Shown piece after piece: positions 8,588 through 53,087 of a stretch of 64,000 bases of DNA; positions within the stretch are counted from its first letter, which is position 1; each line of letters opens with the position of its first letter. The DNA lies in contig CP012068.1 in assembly GCA_001189495.1 (NCBI GenBank), positions 868,001 through 932,000 on the forward strand, written 5' to 3'. The DNA comes from Eubacterium sulci ATCC 35585 (GTDB lineage Bacteria > Bacillota > Clostridia > Peptostreptococcales > Anaerovoracaceae). Below the pieces are notes generated by a model. It ran no database searches, had not been told where the DNA came from, and was given only the letters and a program-made list of their open reading frames with translations. Position numbers and translations under genes: made by a program.

Positions 8588-9547
8588 ATGAAAAACAGTA
8601 TGAAGATTATAGATCTACATTGCGATACACTTTTGGAATGTTGGAAACACAAGGAGCAAGGACTAAAAGATGGTCCTACTGCAATAAATATAGAAAAGCT
8701 TAGAGAAGGCGGAAGCCTTGCTCAGTGCTTTGCCATGTATCTTCCATGGAAGAGCATGAACATAGGACCATATGAGATACTTAAGGGTGTCTATGAGACA
8801 TATAAAGAGCAGATGGAACTAAATAAAGATGCTATAAGACCAGCCCTATGTGTTTCAGATATAGAGCAAAATGCTGCAGATGGAATGCTTTCATCCATAT
8901 TGACCATAGAGGATGGGGCATTTTTAGAGAACAAAATTGAGAGGCTTGATGAAGCCTATGAGATGGGCGTTAGAATGATAGGACTCATTTGGAATCACGA
9001 AAACTGCTTGGCATACCCAAATAATAGAGACGCAGTGGCTCACGAGAGAGGACTCAAGGTCTTTGGTATGGATGTTATTGAGAGAATGAACGAGCTTGGC
9101 ATTGTAATAGATTGCTCGCACCTAAACGAGGGTGGATTCTTTGATGTAGCAAAGCTTAGCAAAAAGCCGTTTATGGCTTCGCACTCATGTGCAAGGGCTC
9201 TATGCGACCATCCTAGAAATCTCAGCGATGAGCAGCTTCACATGCTTGGAGAAAAGGGCGGTGTAGTTGGAATTAACTTCTACGGAGCATTTTTGAATAA
9301 AAGTGGAGATGCAGCAAGCTTTGATAGAATAATAGATCATCTAAAGTACATGAAGGATAAAGCAGGTATCGATGCAATTGCTTTAGGTTCTGACTTTGAT
9401 GGAATAGATGATAATGGAGAACTTGTTGATTTCACTGGCTATGTGCCTTTGATGGACAAAATGAGCAAGCATTTTAGCGATGACGAAATTGAGAAAATCA
9501 GTCATTTAAATGCTATGAGAGTATTTAGGGAGAATATAGGCAGATAA
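8588..9547 (+). CDS. Membrane-dipeptidase-like metallopeptidase, family M19
   Basis: This 319-residue zinc dipeptidase is related to renal dipeptidase; bacterial members hydrolyse L-dipeptides, including some with a C-terminal D-residue. Metal ligands are visible: the HCD pair near the N-terminus (IDLHCDTLLE), the bridging Glu in TIEDGAFL, and His in IDCSHLNEGG and ASHSCARAL. The C-terminal GSDFDGID is also a family signature. There is no signal peptide, so it acts in the cytosol. TAAGGAGG lies before the ATG. The stop overlaps the start of trmL (TAATGG), so the two are translationally coupled. Confidence 0.92.
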   Translation: MKNSMKIIDLHCDTLLECWKHKEQGLKDGPTAINIEKLREGGSLAQCFAMYLPWKSMNIGPYEILKGVYETYKEQMELNKDAIRPALCVSDIEQNAADGMLSSILTIEDGAFLENKIERLDEAYEMGVRMIGLIWNHENCLAYPNNRDAVAHERGLKVFGMDVIERMNELGIVIDCSHLNEGGFFDVAKLSKKPFMASHSCARALCDHPRNLSDEQLHMLGEKGGVVGINFYGAFLNKSGDAASFDRIIDHLKYMKDKAGIDAIALGSDFDGIDDNGELVDFTGYVPLMDKMSKHFSDDEIEKISHLNAMRVFRENIGR

Positions 9548-10017
9548 TGGCATTACATATAGTTTTTGTTGAACCAGAGATACCACCAAATACCGGAAAT
9601 ATAGCAAGGACATGTGCAGCAACTAATACAAAGCTTCATCTTGTGAAGCCGCTTGGATTTGATATAAGTGAGAAGGCTGTTAAGAGGGCAGGTCTAGATT
9701 ACTGGCCTTATGTGGACCTTGAGATTCACGAGTCACTAGATGATTTCATGGAGAAATATAAGGATAAGCGCAAATTTCTTGCAACGACTAAAGGTGGGCG
9801 CATATATACAGATTTTGAATATATGGACGACGATATGTTTTTGTTCGGAAGGGAAACAAAGGGGCTTCCTCGTGATTTCATAGCCAAAAACGAAGAAATG
9901 GCTATAAGAATTCCTATGAGTGAAAACACTAGGTTAAGGTCATTTAATCTATCAAATTCTGCCAATATTATTTTGTTTGAGGCCTTGCGTCAACTAGGTT
10001 TTCCTGAGCTTAAATAA
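9547..10017 (+). CDS. trmL: tRNA (cytidine(34)-2'-O)-methyltransferase
   Basis: This small SPOUT methyltransferase modifies the wobble ribose of tRNA-Leu. At 156 residues it is the usual TrmL size without an RNA-binding extension. The SAM-binding trefoil knot is seen as FGRETKGLP (about residues 101-109), IRIPMSENTRLRSFNLSNSANI and the C-terminal EALRQLG. The N-terminal EPEIPPNTGNIARTCAATNT is diagnostic. Its ATG overlaps the dipeptidase stop. A promoter for rpoN follows directly, so this is the last gene of its unit. Confidence 0.95.
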   Translation: MALHIVFVEPEIPPNTGNIARTCAATNTKLHLVKPLGFDISEKAVKRAGLDYWPYVDLEIHESLDDFMEKYKDKRKFLATTKGGRIYTDFEYMDDDMFLFGRETKGLPRDFIAKNEEMAIRIPMSENTRLRSFNLSNSANIILFEALRQLGFPELK

Positions 10018-10018
10018 T

Positions 10019-10047
10019 TTGCTATAGTTTTTTCAATATGGTATAAT
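10019..10047 (+). promoter_or_regulatory. rpoN promoter
   Basis: TTGCTA (10019-10024), a 17-bp spacer and a perfect TATAAT (10042-10047) lie 38 bp before the rpoN TTG start. Confidence 0.65.
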
Positions 10048-10084
10048 AATTGCATAATATTGTTGAATTGCTGGAGATTTTGCT

Positions 10085-11455
10085 TTGAAGATAGGATACG
10101 AACTGACAATTGAACAGACCCAAAAGCTGTCGATGACACCAGAGCTTATTCAGGCGATACAGATTTTGCAATACAATAATCAGGAACTTAATGAATATAT
10201 AGACAAGGAGCTTCTTGAGAATCCGATACTTGAGTCGGAATATCACAAGGAGTCCGATACAGAGATAGATATAGACAGCCTGAGAGATCAGTTAATTCAG
10301 GCAGACGAGAATGTAGAAGCGTATAAGCAGTGGGAAAGTCATAGCACAAGCGATGAGTACTCATACGAGAATTTTGTTGCTTTTAACTATACCTTGACGG
10401 AATTTCTGATAGAGCAATTACATTTTTCGAGTCTTAAGGGTCAGGATGCCGAGATAGGTCGTTACATAATTGAGAATATCGATGATAACGGCTATCTTTC
10501 TATGTCATTAGAAGAGATTTGCAGTGTTTTAGATGTTGATCTAGATAGCTGCGAAAGAGTTTTAGATCTTATTCATACCTTTGAACCTTCAGGAGTAGGA
10601 GCAAGAGACTTAAACGAATGCCTCATCATTCAGCTTGCATCTTTAGGAGAGCTAACCGATGAGATTGAATTTATCATATCAAATAGACTTAAGGACTTAG
10701 CTGATAATAAATATGCCCTTATTTCTAAAGAAGTAGGCATAAGTCTTACAGAGGTTCAGGGAATAGCTGATTTGATAAAGACGCTTGAGCCTAAACCAGG
10801 CAGAGGCTTTGATTCTGACAATAGCATCAAGTACATACTTCCGGATATATACGTGGAAGAAACAAATGGTGAGTATATAGTAAGCGCCAATGATGGAAGT
10901 ACTCCAAGTTTACATATTAGCTCATACTATAATTCACTTACAGAAGAGGCAAAGTCCGACAAGGAGCTTTCTAACTATCTAAATAATAGATTTAATTCTG
11001 CGATGTGGCTTATGAAGAGCATTGAGCAGAGGAAGAAGACTATTTATAATGTTGCCAGCGCAATAGTTCAGTTTCAGAATGACTTCTTTGCTAAAGGAGA
11101 GAGGTTCCTTAAGCCTTTGACACTCAAGCAAATTGCTGAAACTGTCGGAGTTCATGAGTCAACTGTGAGTCGTGCAATAAATGGCAAATATATGCAATGC
11201 CCTAGAGGAGTTTTTGAGCTTAAGTATTTCTTTACAGGCGGAATCCTTAATGAAGATGGTAGCGGAGTTTCATCAAATAGCATTAAATCTATGATTAAGG
11301 AATTTGTAGACGCTGAGGATGATAAGAAACCCTTAAGCGATTCTAAGATTTCAGAGATGCTTCACGAGAAGGGCATAGATATTTCAAGAAGAACAGTTGC
11401 AAAATATAGAGATGATATAGGCATACTGCCTTCGTCCAAAAGAAGACGTTTTTAG
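10085..11455 (+). CDS. rpoN: RNA polymerase sigma-54 factor
   Basis: RpoN directs RNA polymerase to -24/-12 promoters and needs an enhancer-binding ATPase to open DNA. The 456 residues cover region I (QTQKLSMTPELIQAIQILQ, the activator-interacting domain), an acidic region II, the core-binding domain (about 90-280), and the DNA-binding part with a helix-turn-helix at VGVHESTVSRAINGKY. The C-terminal RpoN box reads SRRTVAKYRDDIGILPSSKRRR. TTG is the chosen start, with GGAG ten bases upstream and homology beginning at once. No enhancer-binding protein is in this window. It lies 63 bp before gap, where many Firmicutes have cggR between rpoN and gap. Confidence 0.97.
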   Translation: MKIGYELTIEQTQKLSMTPELIQAIQILQYNNQELNEYIDKELLENPILESEYHKESDTEIDIDSLRDQLIQADENVEAYKQWESHSTSDEYSYENFVAFNYTLTEFLIEQLHFSSLKGQDAEIGRYIIENIDDNGYLSMSLEEICSVLDVDLDSCERVLDLIHTFEPSGVGARDLNECLIIQLASLGELTDEIEFIISNRLKDLADNKYALISKEVGISLTEVQGIADLIKTLEPKPGRGFDSDNSIKYILPDIYVEETNGEYIVSANDGSTPSLHISSYYNSLTEEAKSDKELSNYLNNRFNSAMWLMKSIEQRKKTIYNVASAIVQFQNDFFAKGERFLKPLTLKQIAETVGVHESTVSRAINGKYMQCPRGVFELKYFFTGGILNEDGSGVSSNSIKSMIKEFVDAEDDKKPLSDSKISEMLHEKGIDISRRTVAKYRDDIGILPSSKRRRF

Positions 11456-11518
11456 GTTTACACCTTTTAACATACAATATAGCTTTAATTAAGAAATAAA
11501 GAGACATGGAGGGTTATT

Positions 11519-12538
11519 ATGTCAATTAAAGTTGGTATCAGTGGATACGGAAGAATCGGACGTCTTGTACTAAGAGCGTCACTAGAACATCCGGAGATCG
11601 AAATTGTAGGAATCAACTACAGAAGTGCAGAGGATATGGAATATCTCGCATATCTTCTGAAATACGATTCCACATTTGGAAGATTCCCTGCTGAGGTAGG
11701 ATATTATGACGGAGGTATCATCATCGGAGGCAAGAAGATACCTGTTTATAAGGAATCCGATATCAAAAATATTCCATGGAGAGAATGCGGTGCAGAGTAT
11801 GTTGTCGAGTCAACAGGTGCATACACAACTACCGAAAAGGCTCTAGGACATATAGAAGCTGGTGCCAAGAAGGTTGTTATCTCAGCTCCTGCAAAGGACA
11901 AGGATACTCCAACATTCGTTTGCGGAGTTAACACAGACAAGTACACAAAGGACATGCTAGTTGTTTCAAATGCATCTTGCACAACAAACTGTCTAGCTCC
12001 ACTTTGCAAGGTTCTAGAAGATAAGTTCGGTATCGAAAAGGGTCTTATGTCAACAATCCACGCAGCTACATCCAAGCAGAAAACAGTTGATGGAAAGTCA
12101 ACAAAGGATTGGCGTATAGGCAGAAGTGTATTCGGAAACATCATTCCTACATCAACAGGAGCAGCTAAGGCTGTTGGACTAGTTATTCCTGAAGTTGCAG
12201 GAAAACTTACTGGTCTTGCATTCCGTGTTCCTACAGCAGACGTATCTGTTGTTGACCTAAACGTTGTTCTTAAGACAGCTACAACCCTAGAAGAAGTAAA
12301 GGCGGCTGTTAAGGAGGCTTCAGAGACATACATGAAGGGCATCCTAGAGTACATGGATGACGAGTGCGTAACAAGCGATTTCATCGGTGATGCAAACACA
12401 TCAATCTTTGATGCACGCCAGGGAATCCAGCTTGATGAAAAGTTCTTTAAGTTCCTAGCTTACTATGACAACGAATTCGGTTATTCCTCCAAGATTCTCA
12501 ATTTGATAGAGCATATGAGCGCTGTCGACAATAAATAG
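11519..12538 (+). CDS. gap: Glyceraldehyde-3-phosphate dehydrogenase, type I
   Basis: This enzyme oxidises and phosphorylates glyceraldehyde-3-phosphate to 1,3-bisphosphoglycerate in glycolysis. It has 339 residues. The NAD(P) fold begins with [15 protein letters not shown], the catalytic cysteine is Cys154 in SNASCTTNC, and the phosphate-binding GAAKAVG and [13 protein letters not shown] segments are present. The second-strand loop that normally has an Asp binding the adenosine ribose of NAD reads INYRSAED here, which may change cofactor choice. TGGAGGG lies six bases before the ATG. It heads gap-pgk-tpiA with gaps of only two and one bases. Confidence 0.96.
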
Positions 12539-12540
12539 AT

Positions 12541-13728
12541 ATGAAAAAGACAATAAGAGATATAGATTTAAAGGGCAAAAGAGTTCTAATCAGATGTGAT
12601 TTCAACGTGCCTCTTGATAGCAATCAAAACATAACAGATGACACCAGAATAAGAGCTGCGCTTCCTACTCTAGAGTACATGCTTACGCAGGGTGCTAAGG
12701 TTGTTGTAATGTCTCACCTTGGTAGACCTAAGGGCAAGGCTGCTGCTGAATTCAGCCTAGCTCCAGTAGCTGTAAGACTTGCTGAGCTTTTAGGTAAGCA
12801 AGTTGAATTTGCAGACAGTGATGTCGTTGTAGACGATTCAGTTAAGGAAAAGGTAGCTGCACTAAAGGATGGAGATGTGCTACTTCTTCAGAACGTTAGA
12901 TTCCGCAAAGAGGAGACAGACAATGAGCCTGGCTTTGCTAAGGAGCTAGCATCTCTAGGAGATGTATTTGTTCAGGAAGCTTTCGGTACTGCGCATAGAG
13001 CACATGCATCAACTGCTGGTGTTGCAGATTATCTTCCATGTGTTTCAGGATTCCTTATCGAGAAGGAAGTTAAGTTCCTAGGTTCAGCCTTACAGAATCC
13101 TCAGAGACCTTTCGTTGCCATTATGGGTGGCGCAAAGGTTGGAGATAAGATTAAGGTTATAGAAAATCTTCTAACAAAGGTTGATACTTTGATAATAGGA
13201 GGAGGAATGTCATATACATTCTACAAGGCAATGGGACTAGAAATTGGAAAATCTATACTAGATGCTGATAATATAGACCTAGCTAAAATGCTCCTTGAGA
13301 AGGCAACTTCCCTAAATGTAAAGCTCTTGCTACCTGTAGACATAGTATGTGCAGATGAGTTTAGCAACGACGCTAAGTACCAGACATATAGCAGAGATCA
13401 GATTCCAAGCGATATGATGGGGCTTGATATAGGCGAGGAAACAGTTAAACTTTATAGCGAGGAAATTGCAAAGGCAAAGACTGTTGTTTGGAATGGACCT
13501 ATGGGCGTATTTGAGATGGAAAACTTTGCAAAGGGCACAAAGGCAATAGCAGAGGCACTTGCAAAATCAGATGCGACCACAATTATAGGCGGTGGTGATT
13601 CAGCTGCTGCGGTAGAGCAGTTTGGACTTGCAGACAAGATGAGTCATATTTCTACGGGCGGAGGAGCTTCGCTCGAGTTCTTGGAAGGTAAGATTCTTCC
13701 AGGCATAAGCATCATAGAGGAGAAATAA
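12541..13728 (+). CDS. pgk: Phosphoglycerate kinase
   Basis: Pgk transfers the acyl phosphate of 1,3-bisphosphoglycerate to ADP, the first ATP-yielding step of glycolysis. The 395-residue protein has the full two-domain layout: N-terminal substrate domain ([21 protein letters not shown], the [12 protein letters not shown] basic patch) and C-terminal nucleotide domain ([40 protein letters not shown]). It starts two bases after gap, with only a weak GAG-rich RBS within the gap 3' end, so translation is probably coupled. Confidence 0.98.
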
Positions 13729-13729
13729 A

Positions 13730-14482
13730 ATGATTAGGATACCTTTGATTGCAGGTAACTGGAAGATGTATAAAACCACAGCTGAGGCCAAGGCTTTTGC
13801 TGAGGAGTTTTCTAAGCTATACAAGGATACTGATGTTAGAGCAGCTATATGTGCTCCATTTACTCAGCTTGTAGCACTCAAAGAGGCATTTGCTGGAACA
13901 AATGTCAAGCTTGGCGCACAGAACGTTCACTTCGAGGATGAGGGAGCTTTCACAGGTGAGATTTCAGTAGAGATGCTTAAGGAAATTGGTGTTGACTACT
14001 GCATTATCGGACATTCAGAGAGAAGAGAATACTTTGCTGAGACAGATGAAACAGTTAATCTCAAGCTAAAGAAACTTTTTTCATCAAGTGAGATCATTCC
14101 TATTCTCTGCGTAGGCGAAAACCTAAGCGAAAGAGAGGCAGGAAATGCCTTTGATGTAGTTGAAGGACAGCTTAAGGCAGATCTAGAAGGAATCGATAAA
14201 GCAGATGTATCAAAGCTTGTAATTGCATACGAGCCAATCTGGGCCATAGGTACTGGAAAGACTGCTACACCAGAGCAGGCAGGAGAGATGTGTGCCCACA
14301 TCAGAAACATCGTAGAGAAATTATATGATGAAGATACATGTGACAGTGTAATTATCCAGTATGGTGGTAGTGTTAAGCCAGAAAATGCAAGCGAAATAAT
14401 GAATATGGACGAGATAGATGGCGCACTTGTAGGTGGAGCTAGTCTAGATGCATCAAAATTCATTAAAATTGTCAATTTCTAA
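13730..14482 (+). CDS. tpiA: Triosephosphate isomerase
   Basis: TpiA interconverts dihydroxyacetone phosphate and glyceraldehyde-3-phosphate. The 250-residue single TIM barrel shows substrate-binding Asn/Lys (AGNWKMYK), electrophilic His (IIGHSERREYF), catalytic Glu in AYEPIWAIGTGKTA with the flexible lid, and the phosphate grip (YGGSVKPENA, GALVGGASL). It follows pgk by one base and the RBS (GAGGAGAAATAAA) sits in the pgk end. This is the last glycolytic gene of the cluster; pgm and eno are not adjacent here. Confidence 0.98.
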   Translation: MIRIPLIAGNWKMYKTTAEAKAFAEEFSKLYKDTDVRAAICAPFTQLVALKEAFAGTNVKLGAQNVHFEDEGAFTGEISVEMLKEIGVDYCIIGHSERREYFAETDETVNLKLKKLFSSSEIIPILCVGENLSEREAGNAFDVVEGQLKADLEGIDKADVSKLVIAYEPIWAIGTGKTATPEQAGEMCAHIRNIVEKLYDEDTCDSVIIQYGGSVKPENASEIMNMDEIDGALVGGASLDASKFIKIVNF

Positions 14483-34705: not shown

Positions 34706-34761
34706 ATATTTTATAGGTTAGTATGAATTTATATACTGAGATGTATCAAAAGGAGAAAGAT

Positions 34762-35136
34762 ATGAACAAAGCAATAATAGCAAAGAATGCACCTGCAGCA
34801 GTTGGACCATATGTACATGCAGTTCAGGCAGGTAATTTACTTTTCGTTTCAGGACAGCTGGGACTTGATCCAGTGAGTGGAGACCTTAAGGAAGGTCTAG
34901 AGGCACAGGCAGTTCAGGCTTTAGAGAATATGAAGGCGGTATTGAACGAAGCAGGATATGAGCTTACAGATGTTGTGAAGACAACTGTGTTCATTGATAA
35001 CATGAATGATTTTGTTAAGGTTAACGATATTTATGCTAAGTATTTTGATGATTGTAAGCCTGCAAGATCATGCGTAGAAGTTGCTAAGCTTCCAAAGGGT
35101 GGACTTGTAGAAATCGAGTGCATTGCATCAAAATAA
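34762..35136 (+). CDS. ridA: RidA family protein, copy 1
   Basis: RidA hydrolyses reactive enamine/imine intermediates made by PLP enzymes to 2-oxo acids and ammonia. The 124-residue protein shows IIAKNAPAAVGPYVHAV, SGQLGLDP, LENMKAVL and CKPARSCVEVAKLPKGGLVEIECIA, with the active-site Arg in PARS. AGGAG lies seven bases before ATG 34762. It differs from copy 2 (36277) at only five residues, all in the first 89. About 31 of the first 270 bases differ between copies, and none in the remaining coding part. A terminator follows. Confidence 0.95.
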   Translation: MNKAIIAKNAPAAVGPYVHAVQAGNLLFVSGQLGLDPVSGDLKEGLEAQAVQALENMKAVLNEAGYELTDVVKTTVFIDNMNDFVKVNDIYAKYFDDCKPARSCVEVAKLPKGGLVEIECIASK

Positions 35137-35195
35137 AGCAAACAAAAACATGCTGACAAGTCATTATTTTGACTTATGTATAAGATGAAACAATG

Positions 35196-35226
35196 GATGG
35201 TCCAAAGGGCCATCTATTAGTTTTTT
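35196..35226 (+). terminator. ridA copy 1 terminator
   Basis: GATGGTCC and GGGCCATC pair around AAA, with one T-G wobble. TTTTTT follows at 35221. Confidence 0.75.
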
Positions 35227-35250
35227 GTGGGTATACGAGGGTTTCGAATG

Positions 35251-35259
35251 TGGTATAAT
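35251..35259 (+). promoter_or_regulatory. Extended -10 promoter of the rnpB stump
   Basis: TGG followed by a perfect TATAAT (35254-35259) matches the rnpB promoter of copy 2. The sequence upstream is shortened by the indel, and no clear -35 box is visible in either copy. Transcription should begin near 35266-35269. Confidence 0.6.
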
Positions 35260-35268
35260 TACTTAGCT

Positions 35269-35352
35269 AAGGGAAGATCAGACGGTCGCGTGCCATAGGC
35301 ATGAGGAAAGTCCGGGCTCCATAGGGCAAGAATGCCGGATAACGTCCGGCGT
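35269..35352 (+). pseudogene. rnpB': Truncated RNase P RNA (first ~84 nt)
   Basis: These bases equal the 5' end of the intact rnpB at 36794-36877, including the conserved GAGGAAAGTCCGGGCTCC strand of P4. After 35352 the sequence departs completely, so the specificity domain and the 3' strands of P1, P2 and P4 are missing. It cannot fold into RNase P RNA. Because it keeps its promoter, it becomes the leader of the mRNA for the phosphopantetheinyl transferase that starts 39 bases later. Confidence 0.85.
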
Positions 35353-35391
35353 TAGAATATAAAGTTTTGATTAGATTATGTGAGATAAACT

Positions 35392-36075
35392 ATGATAGAA
35401 GTATTTTTTTCTAGAATCAGTGAAGTTAACGATTTAGAATTTATAGACAAAAGCTACAGTATGGTTTCAGAAAATTGTAAATCCAAAGCCAAATGCTTTA
35501 GGTTTGAGGCAGATAGGTTGAGAACAATAATAGGGGAGCTTCTTGCAAGGTATGGAATTTGTCATTGTTTCGGAATTGATGCATCAAAACTTAGCTTTAA
35601 TGTTTCAGAATTTGGTAAACCATATATTGTTGGTATTCCATATTACTTCAATATTTCACACTCAGGTGATTATATAATCTGTGGTGTATCGGATATAAAT
35701 ATAGGTGTTGATATTGAGAAAATGCAGGATATAGATTTTGGCTTTGCATGCGATGTATTTAGCGATGAAGAGATAAGAAGAATTTCATTAGAGAGTGCAG
35801 AAAAGAAAAAGGAACTATTTTTTTCGATTTGGACTCTTAAAGAAAGCTATGTCAAATGGCGTGGCACAGGATTTCATAGAAAACTGTCATCATATACTGT
35901 TTTACCGAAAGGAATGCATGCAGAAATATTAAATCCACATAGCCTGTATGACATAGTACCAAAGCTCTGGACATATACAATAGGTGATTATAAAATTTCA
36001 ATTTGTAGCTGTGATATTGATTTTCCTGTTGAATTTAAGCATATATGTCCAGGACAGTTAACTGATAAAAAATAA
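35392..36075 (+). CDS. 4'-phosphopantetheinyl transferase, Sfp type
   Basis: The enzyme activates acyl or peptidyl carrier proteins by transferring phosphopantetheine from CoA. The 227-residue two-lobe protein has the Mg-binding motif GVDIEKMQDI (about residues 103-112) and the second motif SIWTLKESYVKWRGTGF (about 144-160). NISHSGDYIICGV precedes them. AcpS-type enzymes are half this size. Sfp-type enzymes usually serve NRPS/PKS carrier proteins, and none is present here. There is only a weak RBS (GTGAGATAA). The gene is AT-rich compared with its neighbours and is wedged between two copies of a duplicated segment, so recent arrival is likely. Its likely promoter is the duplicated rnpB promoter. 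Confidence 0.9.
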   Translation: MIEVFFSRISEVNDLEFIDKSYSMVSENCKSKAKCFRFEADRLRTIIGELLARYGICHCFGIDASKLSFNVSEFGKPYIVGIPYYFNISHSGDYIICGVSDINIGVDIEKMQDIDFGFACDVFSDEEIRRISLESAEKKKELFFSIWTLKESYVKWRGTGFHRKLSSYTVLPKGMHAEILNPHSLYDIVPKLWTYTIGDYKISICSCDIDFPVEFKHICPGQLTDKK

Positions 36076-36108
36076 CTAACTGAATTTGACCTTGATACTT
36101 TGTCTTAA

Positions 36109-36229
36109 ATTTATTATCTATGAACAAGGGGAAAGTACACAACTTGACACATCCTTAGTTCAAAGAGTATATTCAAAGCTCAGATAGCTAAGGATTTTTA
36201 GCGAATGTGAAATGTCATAGATAATAAAT
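36109..36229. repeat. Nested inverted-repeat element with an internal promoter
   Basis: A perfect 15-bp inverted repeat (36109-36123 with 36215-36229, ATTTATTATCTATGA and its complement) encloses 91 bp. A second perfect pair, ATCCTTAG/CTAAGGAT (36151-36158 with 36188-36195), is nested inside. A promoter lies within. No ORF is encoded. Possible readings are a MITE-like element, a structured RNA or a paired operator. Confidence 0.65.
36144..36173 (+). promoter_or_regulatory. Promoter for ridA copy 2
   Basis: A perfect TTGACA (36144-36149), an 18-bp spacer and TATATT (36168-36173) lie about 100 bp before ATG 36277. The inner inverted repeat overlaps the spacer and the region after the -10 box. 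Confidence 0.65.
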
Positions 36230-36276
36230 GTATTAAGAAAATCAGAAACTATCACACATGATTGAGGGAGGAAGAA

Positions 36277-36651
36277 ATGAACAAAGCAATAATAGCAAAG
36301 AATGCGCCAGCAGCAGTTGGACCATATGTACATGCAGTTCAGGCAGGTAGTCTACTTTTCGTTTCAGGACAGCTAGGACTTGATCCGGTAAGTGGTGAGC
36401 TTAAGGAAGGCCTAGAAGCGCAAGCTGTTCAGGCTCTTGAGAATATGAAGGCAGTTTTGAGCGAAGCTGGATACGAGCTTACAGATGTAGTAAAGACAAC
36501 TGTTTTTATCGATGATATGAATGACTTTGTTAAGGTTAATGAGATTTATGCTAAGTATTTTGATGATTGTAAGCCTGCAAGATCATGCGTAGAAGTTGCT
36601 AAGCTTCCAAAGGGTGGACTTGTAGAAATCGAGTGCATTGCATCAAAATAA
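36277..36651 (+). CDS. ridA: RidA family protein, copy 2
   Basis: This 124-residue imine deaminase paralogue has the same active-site region (CKPARSCVEVAKL) as copy 1. The five differences from copy 1 (N25S, D41E, N62S, N80D, D89E) are conservative, so both are probably functional. GGGAGG lies eight bases before the ATG. It has its own promoter in an inverted-repeat element and its own copy of the terminator. Many of the base changes between the copies are synonymous, indicating an older duplication under selection, with the 3' part since homogenised. Confidence 0.95.
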   Translation: MNKAIIAKNAPAAVGPYVHAVQAGSLLFVSGQLGLDPVSGELKEGLEAQAVQALENMKAVLSEAGYELTDVVKTTVFIDDMNDFVKVNEIYAKYFDDCKPARSCVEVAKLPKGGLVEIECIASK

Positions 36652-36710
36652 AGCAAACAAAAACATGCTGACAAGTCATTATTTTGACTTATGTATAAGA
36701 TGAAACAATG

Positions 36711-36741
36711 GATGGTCCAAAGGGCCATCTATTAGTTTTTT
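36711..36741 (+). terminator. ridA copy 2 terminator
   Basis: The hairpin and TTTTTT are identical to those after copy 1. Confidence 0.75.
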
Positions 36742-36775
36742 GTGGGTATACGAGGGTTTTATTTAATTTTGAATG

Positions 36776-36784
36776 TGGTATAAT
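36776..36784 (+). promoter_or_regulatory. rnpB extended -10 promoter
   Basis: TGG plus a perfect TATAAT (36779-36784) lies about ten bases before the mature 5' end. No clear -35 box is seen. Confidence 0.65.
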
Positions 36785-36793
36785 TACTTAGCT

Positions 36794-37138
36794 AAGGGAA
36801 GATCAGACGGTCGCGTGCCATAGGCATGAGGAAAGTCCGGGCTCCATAGGGCAAGAATGCCGGATAACGTCCGGCGTAGGTAACTATAGGGAAAGTGCAA
36901 CAGAAACATTCCGCCGAAACAGTTAGGCTGTGGTAAGGTTGAAATGGTGAGGTAAGAGCTCACCGGAGTCATGGAGACATGGCTGCCGTGTAAACCCCAT
37001 TCGGAGCAAGGTCGAAATTGAGCACCAAATGCAGCGGCCCGTTGCAGCTCAGGAGGTGGACCGCATGAGCGTGCAGTAATGTTACGCCTCAGATAGATGA
37101 TCGTCTAATACAGAACCCGGCTTATAGATCTGCCCCTT
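36794..37138 (+). ncRNA. rnpB: RNase P RNA, type A
   Basis: This is the catalytic RNA that removes 5' leaders from precursor tRNAs. The 5' conserved strand GAGGAAAGTCCGGGCTCC (36828-36845) and the 3' strand ACAGAACCCGG (37110-37120) form P4. The ends AAGGGAAGATC and GATCTGCCCCTT pair as P1. AGAGCTCACCGG and the central GTAAACCCCATTCGGAGCAAGG are further core elements. Its length of about 345 nt is normal. The MATE gene starts about 20 bases later, after a T-rich stretch. Confidence 0.95.
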
Positions 37139-37158
37139 AGTTTTTATTTGGAGAATAT

Positions 37159-38535
37159 ATGGAAAATACAGTAGAAATCAAAGACAATAGCATATCAGAA
37201 GCTGATAAGATGGGAACCATGCCTGTTGGCAAGCTTCTAATGTCTATGGCTTGGCCTGCAATATTATCCATGACGATAAATGCGCTCTACAATATCGTAG
37301 ATAGCATTTTTGTAGCGCAGATAAGCCAGGAGGCACTGACTGCGGTTTCATTTGTAATGCCTATACAGCTTCTTGTTATTGCAATTACAGTTGGAACAGG
37401 TGTTGGAGTAAACTCTTTGATAGCGAGAAGACTCGGGGCTAAGAGGCAAAAGGAAGCTGATTTAGCTGCATGTACGAGTATCAGGATAGGAATACTAAAT
37501 TATTTGATATTCCTCTTCATAGGGGTGTTCTTGACAGTTCCTTTTATGTCTCACTATACGAGCAATCCTGATATTTTAAGCGCAGGTACTACCTATATGA
37601 GGATAGTAATGTGCTTCAGCATGTTCATGTCAGTTGAGATTCTTTTAGAGAAGGTTTTGCAGTCCACCGGTAATATGATAATACCGATGATTTGCTCTCT
37701 TACAGGTGCGATAGTTAATTTAATCCTAGATCCTATTTTGATCTTTGGACTTCTTGGTGCACCTAAGCTAGGAGTTGCTGGTGCTGCTATTGCTACGGTT
37801 ATTGGACAGGCGTGTAGCCTTATTGTTTCAGCTACATTTATTAAGAAGAAGGAGCATGCAGTAAATATTAAGCTTTTCGGCTTTAAGATGGATTGGAAAA
37901 TCTTTAGGGATATATATGCGGTTGGTCTTCCTTCTATCATAATGCAGGCTATAGGCTCTGTAATGTTGCTTGGATATAATAATATTCTATCAGCAGAACC
38001 AATAGCTGTAGCTGTCTTAGGTATCTACTTTAAAATACAGTCATTTATCTTCATGCCAGTTTTTGGACTTAACCAAGGTGCTATGCCACTTTTTGGGTAT
38101 AACTTTGGTGCAAGGAACAAAGCTAGGTTGATGAAAACATATAAGTTAGCACTAATTGTAGCATTGATTATAATGGGAATTGGTTTTATCCTGTTTCAGG
38201 TTATTCCAGAGTTTTTCCTCAGAATGTTCAATGCTGATGACAGTATGATGAGCATCGGTGTACCGGCACTAAGGAGAATAAGCATATGTTTCTTGCCGGC
38301 GGCCTTTGGTATCATAACTGCAACGCTCTTTCAGGGCACAGGACATGGGATTTACAGCCTTTTTGCGTCTTTGATAAGACAGCTTTTTGGCATTTTACCT
38401 TTAGCATATTTGCTTTATCATTTCTATGGTGTATCTGCATCTTGGTTTTCATTTCCACTTGCAGAAATACTTGGATTATCGTATTCAGCAATCATGCTAA
38501 CACACTTGTATAACAAGCAGATTAAACAACTATAG
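37159..38535 (+). CDS. MATE-family multidrug efflux transporter
   Basis: This 458-residue inner-membrane antiporter uses Na+ or H+ to export cationic drugs or metabolites. It has about twelve hydrophobic helices in two similar halves. The N-terminal PVGKLLMSMAWPAILSMTINALYNIVDSIFVAQ is typical of the MepA/DinF branch, and GLNQGAMPLFGYNFGA opens the second half. TTGGAGAATAT lies before the ATG. It is only about 20 bases past rnpB, so read-through from the rnpB promoter may contribute to expression. The drug range cannot be told. Confidence 0.93.
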   Translation: MENTVEIKDNSISEADKMGTMPVGKLLMSMAWPAILSMTINALYNIVDSIFVAQISQEALTAVSFVMPIQLLVIAITVGTGVGVNSLIARRLGAKRQKEADLAACTSIRIGILNYLIFLFIGVFLTVPFMSHYTSNPDILSAGTTYMRIVMCFSMFMSVEILLEKVLQSTGNMIIPMICSLTGAIVNLILDPILIFGLLGAPKLGVAGAAIATVIGQACSLIVSATFIKKKEHAVNIKLFGFKMDWKIFRDIYAVGLPSIIMQAIGSVMLLGYNNILSAEPIAVAVLGIYFKIQSFIFMPVFGLNQGAMPLFGYNFGARNKARLMKTYKLALIVALIIMGIGFILFQVIPEFFLRMFNADDSMMSIGVPALRRISICFLPAAFGIITATLFQGTGHGIYSLFASLIRQLFGILPLAYLLYHFYGVSASWFSFPLAEILGLSYSAIMLTHLYNKQIKQL

Positions 38536-52346: not shown

Positions 52347-53087
52347 TTGCAAAGAGGAAAATTTGTGCCAAACAATATAGAATGCTATGTGCAGTCAGCT
52401 AAAGCTTTTGTTAAAAGAAATAATAAATATGTCCAAATAGCGGTTACGATTATTGCAATCATAGCCGCTTTGCTGTTTTTTGTGATGAATGGGGAAAAAT
52501 CCCCTAAGGTAGATAATGATAAAGCACCGTCTATAAGTAGCCTAAAGGAATCACAAAGTAAAAAAACAAGTATTACTAATAAATCTTCTAAATCAAAGAT
52601 TTCATCTAAGGACAAATCACAAAATAAGCTAGGTAAAGATTCTGAAGCTGGTGAGATTCTAATTGTAGATATAAGTGGTGAAATAAATAAACCAGGTGTA
52701 TATAAGATTAGACCAGGAACTAGGATTTATGAACTCATAGAGCAGGCGGGTGGTCTTAGTGAAAATGCAAATACTGATGTGATTAACAGAGCATCTATGG
52801 TTTCTGATGGGCAAAAGATTGTAATTCCAAGCAAAATCACGGGAGGACAAGGCTCTCAGGCCACAGATAATACTGATATCTCAAGTAATGTAAGTGGATT
52901 AGTAAATATAAATCAAGCTGACCAAAATCAATTAGAGAGCATAGCAGGAATAGGTCCATCTATGGCAAAACGTATAATAGAATATCGCAGTTCAAATGGC
53001 TATTTTGGTTCAATCGATGAACTTATGAATGTAAAAGGCATAGGCACTAAAAAATTTGATAAAATTAAAGCTTATGTGACTATATAA
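52347..53087 (+). CDS. comEA: ComEA-like SLBB/helix-hairpin-helix DNA-binding protein
   Basis: This DNA receptor of natural transformation is anchored in the membrane with its DNA-binding part outside. The 246 residues have one N-terminal membrane helix (about 27-48), a Ser/Lys-rich spacer, an SLBB domain (VDISGEINKPGVYKIRPGTRIYELIEQAGG) and a C-terminal HhH pair (VNINQADQNQLESIAGIGPSMAKRIIEYR... LMNVKGIGTKKFDKIKAYV). TTG 52347 is the start, with GGAGGG five bases upstream. ComEC, the channel partner, is not adjacent, so full competence cannot be inferred. Confidence 0.92.
   Translation: MQRGKFVPNNIECYVQSAKAFVKRNNKYVQIAVTIIAIIAALLFFVMNGEKSPKVDNDKAPSISSLKESQSKKTSITNKSSKSKISSKDKSQNKLGKDSEAGEILIVDISGEINKPGVYKIRPGTRIYELIEQAGGLSENANTDVINRASMVSDGQKIVIPSKITGGQGSQATDNTDISSNVSGLVNINQADQNQLESIAGIGPSMAKRIIEYRSSNGYFGSIDELMNVKGIGTKKFDKIKAYVTI

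Follow-up and report, generated by a model that had tools for sequence, protein, structure and literature searches.

Why does the beginning of the RNase P RNA gene stand directly in front of a phosphopantetheinyl transferase (PPTase) gene in Eubacterium sulci ATCC 35585, and is the resulting leader a regulatory device or a trace of recombination? The window analysed here is the whole stretch of 64,000 nt of the forward strand (GCA_001189495.1, CP012068.1, positions 868,001 to 932,000); the features of the locus are collected in Table 1. The preliminary description had placed 84 nt of rnpB 39 bases upstream of an Sfp-type gene. The stump is real, although alignment gives a length of 83 nt, a discrepancy at the ends only, and the distance was correct, with the ATG at 35392. 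In the Rfam model search, the intact rnpB scores 263.4 bits against RF00010. The stump scores 27.4 bits against a gathering cut-off of 100, so it is not a class A RNA with a complete core, and its weak match extends into the PPTase gene.

Table 1. Features of the rnpB-PPTase locus (positions are those of the window).
Feature	Position	Strand	Basis
ridA copy 1 (ORF from 34762) and downstream terminator	34752-35241	+	PF01042
Terminator-like hairpin followed by a T run, upstream of the stump promoter	35192-35218	+	hairpin scan
Extended -10 TGGTATAAT of the copied rnpB promoter	35251-35259	+	by eye and pattern
rnpB stump, nt 1-83 of RNase P RNA	35270-35352	+	alignment to 36795-36877
rnpB/PPTase-leader junction, 1-nt overlap (T)	35352-35353	+	
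39-nt PPTase leader, matching the E. infirmum NRPS operon leader save one base	35353-35391	+	
Sfp-type PPTase gene, from an E. infirmum-like donor	35392-36075	+	Pfam, divergence
Spacer with near-consensus promoter 36144-36173 and 18-nt inverted repeat	36076-36261	+	
ridA copy 2 (ORF from 36277), terminator, rnpB promoter	36267-36794	+	repeat alignment, Pfam
Intact class A RNase P RNA gene (rnpB)	36795-37140	+	Rfam RF00010
matE-like gene; right edge of the imported block at ~37244 within it	37159-38535	+	change-point

The stump and the rnpB promoter region form the end of a larger direct repeat (34752-35352 and 36267-36877), the copies of which lie 1515-1525 bp apart with the PPTase gene between them. 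The BLAST alignment of the copies contains 567 identical positions in 611 columns and starts just upstream of ridA; thus ridA, the terminator, the rnpB promoter and the start of rnpB have all been duplicated. At the distal end, 35242-35352 and 36767-36877 differ by one mismatch in 111 nt. The start of rnpB is present twice in the whole E. sulci genome and nowhere else. The whole repeat shows the hallmark of a tandem duplication: a direct repeat in which the end of one copy, the end of the stump, is joined to the start of the unit, the PPTase leader. The first reading had therefore recognised the stump and missed the duplication of ridA and, as described below, the import from another species that lies behind the structure.

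The comparison with relatives covered 13 genomes of the genus, that of E. sulci included. A scan of one genome per species gave one close relative, [Eubacterium] infirmum NCTC12940. There the order is nif3, 13 co-oriented ORFs (~28.6 kb), PPTase, ridA, rnpB and the start of matE, the PPTase being the last gene of a non-ribosomal peptide synthetase (NRPS) cluster whose last NRPS ORF ends 68 nt before it. Upstream, homology between E. infirmum and the window breaks off with the stop codon of nif3 and sets in again from the stump/PPTase junction, and neither ridA1 nor the stump was found in NCTC12940. The five genus members fetched from the 11 besides E. sulci and E. infirmum all show the order dnaG-rpoD-trmK-nif3-ridA-rnpB-matE, and between nif3 and matE they have neither this PPTase nor a cluster. 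Eight of these 11 contain distant PPTase relatives, at 28-37% identity.

Several further features of these loci deserve mention. The NRPS cluster of E. infirmum, an oral species, occupies C1 332604-361181 and includes transporter components (ECF/ABC among them) and adenylation, carrier and condensation domains. It also encodes a thiazolinyl imide reductase (TIGR01761, above cut-off) and presumably resembles thiazoline-type metallophore clusters. In E. infirmum, an insertion that includes a ParA-like gene interrupts matE (8687-14001 of the fetched locus, at the end of C1), and the remainder of matE lies on contig 2. This ParA-like gene, read from the translation on the rnpB contig, suggested a secondary replicon (plasmid or chromid), an idea that was rejected: dnaG to nif3 lie on the same contig and matE continues on contig 2, as expected where DNA has been inserted into a chromosome close to the end of a contig. 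In the five fetched genus members, the gap between ridA and rnpB is ~17 to 51 nt, against 143 nt with a terminator in the window; in those relatives, the rnpB promoter may thus lie inside ridA, or the two genes may be co-transcribed.

The level of divergence between E. sulci and E. infirmum changes along the window. Fifty-two intervals were compared, of which 2234-2797 has no match and six lie inside a block around the PPTase. Outside this block, DNA identity is 77.9-93.8% in 42 coding intervals and 94.9% in the 6S RNA. Inside it, identity rises to 97.2% (PPTase), 96.2% (spacer), 98.4% (ridA2), 98.6% (ridA-rnpB spacer), 99.7% (rnpB) and 100% (stump), and two intervals straddle the edges (ridA1 90.4%, first part of matE 89.9%). 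The dS is 0.058 in the PPTase and 0.033 in the first part of ridA2, whereas 11 comparators range from 0.43 to 1.08 (a further one, of differing length, was omitted); these values indicate a recent import. To the right, the change-point at 37244 (support interval 37202-37259) marks the return of divergence to the background: the first 100 nt of matE contain 2 differences from E. infirmum, whereas the 400 nt that follow contain 54 (Fisher p 3e-4). A right crossover in ridA2 near 36547 had been considered and was dropped in favour of this edge.

The left edge lies within ridA1. As far as 35028, the two copies of ridA have 31 differing sites; the following 213 nt (35029-35241) are the same in both, beyond which copy 1 lacks 10 bp (at 35242) and differs at 35245. 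Up to 35028, ridA1 is native-like, with 32 differences from E. infirmum in 267 positions, and afterwards it is closer to E. infirmum, with 4 in 108 (p 0.012). The 3′ ends of both copies share four bases unlike those of NCTC12940, so this strain is not the exact donor.

The preliminary description had also attributed to the PPTase a strong rnpB promoter, a poor RBS and no other visible promoter. As a bare string, TGNTATAAT is no commoner in the window than expected by chance (6 found, 5.5 expected). The extended -10 is nevertheless credible, since its position is the same ahead of each rnpB copy and in E. infirmum NCTC12940. By eye, a good -35 is missing from both copies, which is why the promoter scan omits the rnpB promoter, and the copied promoter lacks 10 bp directly upstream of the extended -10 that are present in copy 2 and in E. 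infirmum; this loss may have weakened it. The only other promoter-like match nearby, at 35367-35396, overlaps the start codon, and no promoter better than the copied one was detected. The RBS is weak as stated, but this is a trait of the original leader and not a product of the fusion: with a single base different from the leader of the E. infirmum operon, the translation signals are the original ones.

The terminator-like hairpin would insulate the PPTase from ridA1, and the scan found no terminator between the stump and the PPTase ATG. In the predicted hybrid RNA, the local hairpins of the stump are intact (z -2.16), and the start region is weakly structured according to the folding prediction. 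On the sequence, transcription of the PPTase from the rnpB promoter needs the fewest assumptions, and a hybrid stump-PPTase transcript is plausible; the chances that the copied promoter actually drives the gene appear to be roughly even. The resemblance of the leader to RNase P RNA is due to copying.

The spacer between the PPTase and ridA2 is of separate interest. The 18-nt inverted repeat (36106-36232) flanks the near-consensus promoter (TTGACA-18-TATATT) upstream of ridA2 and is kept in E. infirmum; this is possibly an operator or a regulated leader. The 186-bp spacer with the inverted repeat is found once in the E. sulci genome and once in that of E. infirmum. A mobile element or an att site in rnpB was considered and rejected, because with the start of rnpB present only twice in the E. 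sulci genome and the spacer once in each of the two genomes no dispersed element was found.

The PPTase itself has an open reading frame of 227 aa and the two-domain Sfp layout; its matches to PF01648 (52.8 bits) and PF22624 (45.5 bits) exceed the respective cut-offs. Its closest solved relative by phmmer is the Bacillus Sfp 1qr0 (E 4.9e-27, residues 23-217). In the alignment, its motifs GVDIE and WTLKES fall opposite GIDIE and WSMKES in Sfp, and the acidic residues match those of Sfp, where we take D107, E109 and E151 to be the metal-binding ones. The score against the NCBIfam equivalog AusB (NF047349) is 110.6 bits, below the cut-off of 225. Another, second PPTase is present in both the E. 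sulci and the E. infirmum genomes, and the imported type occurs in E. sulci in one copy only; a crossover in ridA would leave any second copy behind. The PPTase is an orphan in E. sulci as regards NRPS, since no condensation domain (PF00668) was found in its genome against five in E. infirmum. The dN/dS of the gene between the two species, 0.37 from ~19 changes compared to 0.02-0.06 in other genes, is a hint that it may be under weak constraint.

A carrier-protein cluster of E. sulci (C1 1058082-1069024) encodes a pair of free-standing carrier proteins, a carrier-AMP ligase fusion and a second AMP ligase, as well as KAS III-like, class II tRNA-synthetase-like and ABC-transporter-like proteins. 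For the fusion ligase, the search of the 12 other genomes of the genus gave no close relative (best match 43%, partial). With this cluster, the imported PPTase could have clients. A bolder proposal would be that the truncated rnpB acts as promoter and 5′ UTR, a natural fusion of RNase P RNA and mRNA that couples expression of the imported PPTase to the synthesis of RNase P RNA, the PPTase loading the carrier proteins of the E. sulci-specific cluster; we regard this as doubtful.

It is likely, in our judgement, that a duplication and an inter-species exchange left the stump behind as a scar, and that it is not an evolved regulatory device. The repeat, the junction, the mosaic divergence, the donor-type arrangement and the absence of condensation domains are established. 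The order of events, the transfer route, the use of the promoter and the function of the PPTase are what we infer from them, the order because no strain with an intermediate was seen. The ancestral order would have been nif3-ridA-rnpB-matE. Between nif3 and ridA, an E. infirmum-like lineage has an NRPS cluster with a PPTase as its last gene. A ~1.5-kb tandem duplication of the segment from the PPTase through ridA to the start of rnpB in the donor lineage would then, in the simplest account, have joined nt 83 of rnpB to the PPTase leader with the 1-nt overlap. Subsequently, homologous exchange would have replaced resident DNA in an ancestor of E. sulci by the right-hand part of the rearranged DNA, with the left crossover in ridA near 35029-35037 and the right one near 37244 in matE, the remaining NRPS cluster being left behind or lost. 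In the recipient, one rnpB would have stayed intact, and a second ridA would have been acquired together with the PPTase, whose operon promoter would have been replaced by the rnpB promoter copy. The likely effect would be transcription from ~35266-35270 through the stump into the PPTase. As to the route, there is a ComEC-family protein and, in the window at 52347-53087, a ComEA-like protein (SLBB and helix-hairpin-helix; named from its domains). Given these genes, DNA uptake is plausible and no more, as competence genes do not prove transformation.

The main rival of this history is homology-facilitated illegitimate recombination, in which a linear piece of donor DNA, with its left end just upstream of the PPTase, would have recombined homologously to the right, in matE, and been joined illegitimately to nt 83 of the recipient rnpB, with later gene conversion of the 3′ part of copy 1. 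It would account for one homologous and one non-homologous edge and for the import from an E. infirmum-like donor, and the process is known in competent bacteria, as described in PMC3240628. We hold it to be possible but rather unlikely, since an additional gene conversion is required for the 213 identical nt and the join has a 1-nt overlap, in contrast to the micro-homology of 3 to 10 bp reported there for most cases. Conversion could also have made the 3′ ends of ridA identical after a different first event. A donor fragment spanning the PPTase, ridA and nt 1-83 of rnpB that was circularised and integrated via a single crossover in ridA would yield the identical gene order, and ligation of linear DNA followed by a single crossover is described for E. 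coli in the same paper (PMC3240628). However, such an integration predicts that the 3′ part of ridA is native in copy 2 and donor-derived in copy 1, where identical ones are observed, and the low divergence runs on through rnpB into matE; this makes the circular intermediate improbable.

The view of the stump as a purposeful leader or RNase P protein decoy kept by selection can appeal to the promoter copy, to the lack of a detected terminator before the gene and to the stable leader hairpins. The core helices of RNase P RNA, read alongside the Rfam structure line, need their 3′ strands. The stump retains only the 5′ strands of these helices and local hairpins, which, with its low Rfam score, leaves the suggested competition for RNase P protein unsupported. 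Moreover, of the 13 genus genomes searched, only that of E. sulci has a second 5′ copy beside a PPTase; the junction is of recent date, and the dN/dS of the PPTase is high relative to the comparators. Such a device seems very improbable.

Understood as a scar of duplication and exchange, the locus is a tidy though fairly ordinary trace of DNA exchange with a related oral bacterium. It gives a clear and recent snapshot of a piece of a biosynthetic cluster crossing a species border and landing behind the promoter of a housekeeping RNA, and exchange at the locus of the essential rnpB has left that RNA undestroyed. For annotators, it means that partial copies of rnpB can come from recombination and need not be regulatory RNAs. 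Searches of a limited literature collection on partial rnpB duplication, E. infirmum NRPS and RNase P protein contacts did not find this case, and the name ‘Eubacterium infirmum’ was not found in the literature retrieved on E. infirmum NRPS.

Among known systems, the arrangement resembles partial tandem duplications (merodiploidy), including those caused by transformation, which are head-to-tail as here (PMC3784515). Duplications during transformation are documented there at a far larger scale, ~100 to 900 kb between repeats, whereas the unit here is ~1.5 kb and its ends are without repeats. With the illegitimate process of PMC3240628, the locus shares foreign DNA that is homologous on one side and joined non-homologously on the other. 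It differs in the shorter overlap and in that copy 1 is already donor-like beside the junction, which suggests duplication before the transfer or later conversion. Finally, the PPTase is like the NRPS-linked Sfp-type enzymes, Bacillus Sfp and AusB, in sequence and domain layout, and its E. infirmum orthologue closes an NRPS cluster; the E. sulci gene, in contrast, stands as an orphan.
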